Below are positions 14,950 to 15,899 of a DNA stretch of 64,000 nt, piece after piece. The position numbers and the translations under genes were made by a program. Below the pieces are notes generated by a model. It was not told the DNA's origin and did not search any database. It saw only the letters and a program-made list of their open reading frames with translations. Within the stretch, counting starts at the first letter, position 1, and each line of letters opens with the position of its first letter. This stretch comes from Reyranellaceae bacterium (GTDB lineage: Bacteria; Pseudomonadota; Alphaproteobacteria; Reyranellales; Reyranellaceae): positions 1-64,000 of the forward strand of contig JALHMM010000003.1 of the NCBI GenBank assembly GCA_022844045.1, given 5' to 3'.

Positions 14950-15711
14950 TTAACCGTCCCAGACGTTCTGCGGCATCGGCAGCTTGGCGAAATCTGCGTC
15001 GACCAGCGGCCGGTTATGCGTCACGCCCTCGCGTTCGAGCAGCATCATCCATTGCCGGACGTGCTGACCGCAGTGCCACGTCGTGCGCTCGAACAGGTCG
15101 TGCATGCTTTGCGGGCCGTAGTAAGTGTCGAGCGTGCCGGTACCGTCGCGGTCCGAGGTCTTGGCCCACCAGGCGTCGAGCCGCTGTTTCACCTGGGCGC
15201 CATAGTCAGCCACCGATTCCATCGTGGCGTCGTCGGCCGGCACTTCGCGGAAGGCGTCCTGCACCAGGGTGATGCCGTCGACGGCGTCGAGGAACGCCGC
15301 CACAACCCGGAACATGTGGAACGACAGGTGCCGGTAGCTGCGCGGCCGGCCCGGGACGTGGACGTCCAGTCGGTCGGCCGGCATCAGCGGCAGGAGCGCT
15401 ATGGCCGCGTCCATGAACTTGTCGAGCCGCGCGTGCAGCTCGGCCGGCGTCAGATCAGGCGTGGTCTTCTCGTTCAGGCCGACGAAGTCGACGATCGCCT
15501 TCAGGCTCTGCGCGTAGGTGTAGTCCTTGCCACGCGACAGCACTGGCACCGAACGGGCACCCATGGCTTGCAACTCGGCCAGCCCCTCGGGCTCGGCCAG
15601 CACATTGACGGATACGTAGTCGACCGCACGGGCCGATAGAAACTCCTTGAGTCTCAGGCAGCTGGTTCAACCAGGCTGCCAGAAGACCTTGAGCGGCGGC
15701 TGCATCGCCAT
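14950..15711 (-). CDS. glutaredoxin-DinB fusion with in-frame UGA (candidate selenoprotein)
   Basis: Starting at ATG 15711 behind a strong GGAGG, the frame reads MAMQPPLKVFWQPG, then TGA (15669-15667), then TSCLRLKEFLSARAVDY. It continues open to 14950, 253 residues if the UGA is read. The N-terminal ~75 residues are glutaredoxin-like (CLRLKEFL, cis-Pro ARSVPVLSRG), and the UGA sits where the first Cys of the WQPG-C-TSC motif is expected. The rest is DinB-like, with His residues in SYRHLSFHMF and TTWHCGQHVRQW. A 7-bp hairpin starts 11 nt after the UGA. Either the codon is selenocysteine, or this is a nonsense mutant; translation from an internal ATG (15603) would give DinB alone. Confidence 0.6.
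15632..15659 (-). promoter_or_regulatory. candidate bacterial SECIS hairpin downstream of the UGA
   Basis: On the mRNA, GAGACUC (15655-15649) pairs fully with GAGUUUC (15645-15639), leaving a 3-nt AAG loop. GCCU (15659-15656) can extend the stem with A and GGC (15637 and 15634-15632) around small bulges. The loop is about 19-21 nt after the UGA, within the range of bacterial SECIS elements. The loop sequence is not the E. coli GGUC type. Confidence 0.35.
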
Positions 15712-15899
15712 CGTTTCCTCCCGGGCCATCCGCTCGTCAGCGGACATCCGCCGAGGTTCGCCCGCCCCGTCGCCGCTGGCAAGCCGCAGGGAACGCCCCT
15801 TGACCCAAATCATGGTGCCACCCGCCCCACCCCGCCATAGCAGACCGTCCCCGCAGCGGTGGACGCAGGCTCGCCGCGCGCGGACACGGAGACGGATCG

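Follow-up and report, generated by a model that had tools for sequence, protein, structure and literature searches.

The locus analyzed here raises the question of whether a TGA at the 15th codon of an otherwise open reading frame ends translation or encodes selenocysteine (Sec). It lies in a 64,000-nucleotide stretch of DNA from a Reyranellaceae bacterium (assembly GCA_022844045.1, contig JALHMM010000003.1, positions 1 to 64,000; hereafter the window), and all features described below are on its minus strand. The coding sequence (14950..15711) comprises 254 codons, from an ATG at 15711 to a TAA at 14950-14952, with a Shine-Dalgarno GGAGG (15717..15721) located 5 nt 5' of the ATG. Fourteen codons, a TGA at 15667-15669 as the sole interruption, and then no stop until the terminal TAA were read directly in the sequence, confirming the GGAGG-ATG start, the 14 codons, the TGA, and the long open frame described in an earlier note on this DNA. 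A standard open reading frame listing yields, instead of the whole gene, a truncated 217-amino-acid piece starting from an internal GTG (14950..15603).

When the TGA was translated as U, the product was MAMQPPLKVFWQPG-U-TSCLRL..., with 253 amino acids, and both domains of the previously proposed glutaredoxin-DinB (Grx-DinB) fusion scored above their Pfam cut-offs. The glutaredoxin domain, also seen in the AlphaFold model, covers residues 8-58 (15538..15690; PF00462, 37.4 bits versus a cut-off of 22.9). The DinB, or S-transferase-like, helical domain lies C-terminal to it at residues ∼89-241 (14989..15447), as delimited by the model, Foldseek, and the DinB_2 match at residues 158-220 (PF12867, 26.7 bits versus a cut-off of 24.8). 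The TGA occupies the position of the first Cys of the glutaredoxin CxxC motif (WQPG-U-TSC), as the earlier note had read it and as the sequence and the Pfam domain jointly confirmed, and the codon of the resolving Cys18 of the U-T-S-C motif follows at 15658..15660.

Among 101 genomes searched with the protein, a set that includes the window's own, 55 were found to carry the gene interrupted by a single in-frame TGA, and 54 of these 55 belonged to the window's own family (Reyranella-type). In the alignment of this family, the column was TGA in all 53 full-length rows, a set that excludes one further TGA locus (L067 of genome G072), a Cys row (L068), a fragment (L074), and duplicate loci. In a species-level GTDB collection, a relative was encoded in 144 stretches, and TGA was present in all of the best 80 of these 144 (59 Reyranella-type and 21 others, mostly Acetobacteraceae). 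The TGA carriers include isolates as well as metagenome-assembled genomes, namely, Reyranella massiliensis 521, R. soli, R. aquatilis, Enhydrobacter aerosaccus ATCC 27094, Vineibacter terrae, Desertibaculum subflavum, and Acidisphaera sp. S103 among the isolates. A sample of the class contained a full-length relative (E below 1e-70) in 32 of 385 genomes, 19 with TGA and 13 with Cys only, and the gene was rare in the phylum sample because 2 of 398 genomes (that of the window and another from its family) matched at an E value of 1e-20. Among 72,556 plasmid records, 13 also matched, with large Caballeronia, Variovorax, Roseomonas, and Rhizobium leguminosarum plasmids carrying the gene, and the four plasmid loci fetched (L208-L211) all had Cys at the Sec column. 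Over 110 partly redundant loci (the best 80 of 144 GTDB loci plus the class-sample loci), the codon at this column was TGA in 99, TGC in 8, and TGT in 3, with no other codon; the Cys/UGA variation that had been proposed as a check among homologues was thus present (99 TGA and 11 Cys). Bacterial selenoproteins are recognized by a UGA within the frame at a redox-active position for which homologues have Cys, and this pattern was found here. A second candidate UGA glutaredoxin, in genome G416, was rejected, its TGA being that gene's own stop.

A lone early in-frame stop is the usual sign of decay, and the assembly of the window's genome is fragmented and 5.79% contaminated, both of which would suit a TGA that arose by nonsense mutation or as a miscall of TGC. 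This explanation is nevertheless extremely unlikely, considering that the same single TGA recurs across the 55 genomes and the best 80 GTDB loci, isolates included, and that the frame behind it is maintained. In six pairwise comparisons, codons 33-253 showed dN values of 0.03-0.07 versus dS values of 0.33-0.76, showing that the frame after the UGA is under purifying selection, and no other stop was found in the orthologues, where additional stops had been named as the mark of a decayed gene.

The Sec machinery was then considered. In the window's genome, the tRNA-Sec gene (G000:C85:23175-23266) scored 72.3 bits and carried the anticodon TCA (UCA) according to ARAGORN, and the next four matches of the search, at 45-49 bits, were tRNA-Ser or tRNA-Leu. 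SelB (648 amino acids) scored 466 bits versus a cut-off of 242, and its gene lies 3.4 kb from the tRNA-Sec gene on contig C85. Thus, among the sel genes that the earlier note had listed for checking, selC and selB were found, but selA and selD were not, neither SelA nor SelD being above cut-off in this assembly (91.9% complete). In the simplest reading, this absence is likely an assembly gap. On contig C85, just 160 bp of sequence lie upstream of selB before the contig ends. In both relatives in which the neighbor of selB was scanned (G003 and G005), this neighbor is selA; in the sister genome G003, where selA scored 562 bits, its end is 172 nt upstream of selB. The 160 bp on C85 gave no clear alignment with the selA-selB spacer of the sisters. 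SelD was above cut-off in 11 of the 12 genomes examined, the exception being the window's own. Across the 55 UGA genomes, SelB was above cut-off in 53 and a tRNA-Sec of at least 68 bits was detected in 53, and two genomes with the UGA gene, G033 (89% complete) and G072 (77% complete), had neither SelB above cut-off nor a strong tRNA-Sec. Among the 27 class-sample carriers, which are mostly more distant (G072 is in both sets), SelB was present in 13 of 14 UGA genomes versus 3 of 13 Cys-only genomes (Fisher p 0.0003) and tRNA-Sec in 12 of 14 versus 3 of 13 (Fisher p 0.002), these p-values being optimistic because the genomes are related and not independent. Genome G423 had SelB without a strong tRNA-Sec match.

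Some family members without the full-length gene (G001, G011, G016, G049, G054, and G060) also had a strong tRNA-Sec, as did G027, which showed a weak glutaredoxin-only match, and SelB was above cut-off in all of these except G054. In such genomes, other selenoproteins probably keep the Sec trait, or the assemblies miss the gene. In addition, the open frames that encode SelD spanned 744-968 codons in all SelD-bearing genomes but one (10 of 11; L198-L207), the exception being G005 with 385 codons; the long frames suggest a SelD fused to a second domain, and Ndh-SelD fusions are known (PMC2398784).

Across the 53 rows, mean synonymous codon diversity was 0.054 in codons 19-32 (15616..15657) versus 0.378 in codons 33-250; none of 100,000 random draws was as low, and the lowest stretch beyond codon 33 reached 0.192. 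The frozen codons include the rare AGA, TTT, CTA, and CGT, which account for 0-4% of the codons for the respective amino acids in three long window genes, taken by us, by eye, to be pheS, pheT, and lepA. This 14-codon block contains a hairpin at 15620..15636 with a 6-bp stem and the loop CGUGC (15626-15630), which was analyzed after 66 distinct UGA sequences had been aligned without gaps over 57 nt. As given in a published figure legend, the bacterial SECIS model has a loop of 3-9 nt, a stem of 4-16 bp, a G within the first two loop positions, 16-37 nt from the UGA to the loop, and an energy of at most -7.5 kcal/mol (PMC13188914, Fig. 2 legend). The hairpin was within these limits for loop, stem, loop G, and spacing, with a 5-nt loop that read CGUGN in all 66 sequences and lay 36 nt after the UGA. 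All six pairs were formed in 64 of the 66 UGA sequences and in none of the 11 Cys sequences, in which the S-V-R-G-I type peptide accompanying the hairpin was replaced by varied residues. In the stem, 99.5% of cells were paired, versus 8-59% for slid controls. Covariation was observed as U-A to C-G at one pair in four sequences and U-A to G-C or G-U at another pair in two sequences; the six cells with two-sided change exceeded all 500 shuffles, and the number of pairs with such change (two) was reached by 17 of 500 shuffles.

The folding energy of this hairpin was at most -7.5 kcal/mol in 49 of the 66 sequences and missed the limit in 17, and the window's own was borderline (-7.6 with flanks and -7.0 bare). 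The 55-nt fold of the window sequence contained both this hairpin, exactly at 15620-15636, and the one proposed in the earlier note; other pairings replaced 15620-15636 in the 70-nt and 54-nt folds, the outcome varying with the length folded, and fold z-scores were about 0. Moreover, of the 1,397 TGA triplets on both strands of the window, 179 were followed by a hairpin that had a stem of at least 6 and satisfied the published limits, so in GC-rich DNA a hairpin in a single sequence is weak evidence, and the case rests on conservation, not on the single sequence. A search of 15300-15800 against Rfam gave two matches, both far under their gathering scores.

The hairpin named in the earlier note as lying in the SECIS range (15639..15655; 7 bp, loop AAG at 15646-15648) was also present in the window, but it was not the best conserved one. 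As the main SECIS it was rejected: its loop was AAA or AAG, with no G, in all 66 sequences, all seven pairs were formed in just 52 of 66 (14 of 66 not fully paired), its energy was at most -7.5 kcal/mol in none of the 66, and its covariation score was 0.093 versus a shuffled mean of 0.101. With 88.7% of its cells paired, it exceeded all 500 shuffles, and it may play a supporting part in the mRNAs of the Reyranella-type group and the Acetobacteraceae because its codons are frozen in Reyranella-type rows too. Comparison of the aligned sequences indicates that the SECIS is probably the hairpin at 15620-15636 rather than that at 15639-15655.

Hairpins near the UGA, together with the listed frame from the internal GTG at 15603, would also suit a true stop, at which a leader peptide or attenuator ends before a separately started DinB protein. 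The pattern in orthologues makes this very unlikely. Codon 37 is not a conserved start because it was GTG in just 17 of 53 orthologues and GTC, GTT, or GTA in the others, whereas codons 16-36, from the UGA to the GTG, kept their commonest residue in 42-53 of the 53 rows. The UGA column alternates with Cys only, and the Cys forms are single uninterrupted proteins, so annotated on the four plasmids examined. The palindrome around the UGA, described earlier as perfect and as leaving room for an attenuator, proved to be imperfect in the window, where a bulged C is required, and was not conserved across 55 distinct sequences, in which the third base of codon 13 was T in 26, C in 17, and G in 12 and position +5 was C in 27, G in 23, and A in 5.

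Conservation indicates read-through, in which a residue other than Sec might be inserted by code reassignment or a near-cognate tRNA. However, the 54 complete UGA orthologues ended in TGA (37), TAG (11), or TAA (6), and UGA is therefore not reassigned. Furthermore, Cys was the sole alternative residue at the column, the UGA form of the gene tracked SelB and tRNA-Sec, and the conserved hairpin fitted the bacterial SECIS model, which together leave read-through by another residue highly improbable.

The Sec machinery, the Sec/Cys exchange, the conserved UGA, and the covarying hairpin thus supported the selenoprotein reading of the earlier note, and the gene is almost certainly a real selenoprotein gene in which the UGA is recoded as Sec. 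Sec insertion itself, and which hairpin SelB binds, are what we infer from sequence. On arrival of the ribosome at codon 15, SelB with Sec-tRNA-Sec would be positioned on the hairpin 36 nt downstream of the UGA, Sec would be delivered at this codon, and translation would proceed to the TAA. In the predicted 253-residue product, an N-terminal dithiol-type glutaredoxin with Sec as its catalytic residue (U-T-S-C) would be joined to the helical DinB (S-transferase-like) domain, in which three His are invariant. This explanation as a whole, including Sec insertion, the SECIS, and a Grx-DinB enzyme, is very probably correct.

An AlphaFold model, built from 31 sequences with Sec as Cys, had a mean pLDDT of 91.7 and a pTM of 0.86. 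Its top Foldseek matches were the DinB proteins 6iz2 and 2f22 (best PDB E value, 4e-4), followed lower down by the mycothiol-dependent maleylpyruvate isomerase 2nsf, YfiT/BstA 1rxq, and the mycothiol S-transferase 8f5v; 3di5 was also listed among the DinB-fold matches, and glutathione S-transferases matched too, with poor superposition. In a viral fold library, the one match at an E value of 0.001 or better was a phage glutaredoxin, with lower ones mostly glutaredoxins, and among viral contigs 53 stretches fitted a pattern and none was a relative. His132 (15316..15318), the His213-x3-His217 pair (15061..15075), and Cys18 were kept in all 49 Sec and Cys rows. Members of the superfamily in Bacillus subtilis are described as metal-dependent bacillithiol transferases with three conserved His, which in BstA are H67, H160, and H164 (PMC5815605). 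By analogy, H132, H213, and H217 are putative metal ligands, matched to those of BstA by spacing rather than by superposition.

On this basis, glutathione-linked thiol transfer or reduction may be tentatively proposed as the function, with the DinB metal site and the glutaredoxin selenol acting on the same thiol adduct. It is somewhat more doubtful that the protein is a selenium-dependent low-molecular-weight-thiol enzyme, the first of the DinB/S-transferase-like proteins to contain its own selenol glutaredoxin, in which the metal site would make or break the adduct, probably of glutathione, and the Sec would reduce it in cis. Operon context was discarded as a clue to function. Within 5 kb of the best 80 of 144 GTDB loci, no neighbor cluster was general in both groups; among the 25 largest clusters, four mixed Reyranella-type and other loci (41+1, 25+6, 7+1, and 1+2), the underlying open reading frame calls being heuristic and some of them spurious. 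The four Cys forms on plasmids had differing flanks. The gene neighborhood thus neither supports nor contradicts a thiol-transferase or reductase role.

Whether this true selenoprotein is simply one more known, catalogued Sec glutaredoxin was also considered. A 2026 review lists 119 selenoprotein families, with a plain UxxC glutaredoxin (PF00462) among them (PMC13188914, Table 1), and this entry shares with the window protein the glutaredoxin fold, Sec at the first place of the redox motif, and the resolving Cys. Among solved structures, the glutaredoxins 7c10 and 7c12 are nearest to the first domain, and selenoprotein fusions of the thioredoxin fold have precedents, e.g., Prx with a PP2C-type phosphatase (PMC2398784). 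Such an assignment is nevertheless unlikely, since the listed entry is plain whereas the window protein is fused to a DinB domain that is named in no entry of the 119-family table, "DinB" occurring nowhere in that review, and the carriers seen for the window family are almost all Alphaproteobacteria. No NCBIfam model (June 2026) was above cut-off. The UXX-star models NF041212, NF047338, and NF041211, which describe glutaredoxin-like (seleno)proteins, matched the first domain weakly (20-28 bits versus cut-offs of 66-100), and the window motif is UxxC. "DinB" was likewise absent from the main texts of a 2022 review and of the deep-Sep, Sargasso Sea, and GOS papers. Literature combining selenoproteins with DinB concerned other matters, judging by its listings; the listings, in which subscription journals are mostly uncovered, contained nothing suggestive of this protein for selenoproteins with DinB, Reyranella, or Acetobacteraceae, or for a glutaredoxin-DinB fusion.

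Relative to the 119-family inventory and NCBIfam, the protein therefore represents a new selenoprotein family or architecture. It shares the helical fold, the three invariant His, and the HxxxH motif with the DinB superfamily (BstA/YfiT, mycothiol S-transferase, and maleylpyruvate isomerase) but differs in its N-terminal Sec glutaredoxin, and its metal binding and transferase activity are predicted. The plasmid Cys homologues, annotated as "glutaredoxin domain-containing" or "DinB family protein," have the same two-domain architecture at 31-42% identity, with Cys where the window protein has Sec.

These findings illustrate a well-supported selenoprotein family across many Reyranella-type and Acetobacteraceae species, which are soil and water bacteria, in a gene that is split at the UGA by ordinary open reading frame prediction. 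A 2006 survey reported the neighboring fdhA as the only selenoprotein gene in Sec-decoding Alphaproteobacteria, Betaproteobacteria, and Pseudomonadales (PMC1794560), and a later count gave three selenoproteins in the alphaproteobacterium Afipia carboxidovorans (PMC12013277). The present family would add a redox selenoenzyme to the Alphaproteobacteria, a class once credited with the fdhA product only, and, if the thiol-enzyme reading is true, these bacteria would have a reason besides formate dehydrogenase for keeping Sec. Moreover, the Sec and Cys forms of one architecture offer a natural test of the benefit of selenium, and the Cys forms, which lack the hairpin, provide a clean comparison for identifying the SelB target in this lineage.

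In a tree of 49 rows (33 Sec and 16 Cys), the Sec/Cys state required two changes, and one to three in bootstrap trees, the tree being rooted at the midpoint and having weak basal branches. This distribution fits a single origin of the Sec form from a Cys ancestor, perhaps with one reversal. One Cys form (L068, on the 3.4-kb contig G053:C372), from a genome in which the UGA form occurs as well, sat on a long branch and is possibly contamination. In G364, one of the 19 TGA-bearing genomes of the class sample, the two-domain protein is encoded twice, once with UGA and once, separately, with TGC (L213 and L214, on contigs C24 and C25).
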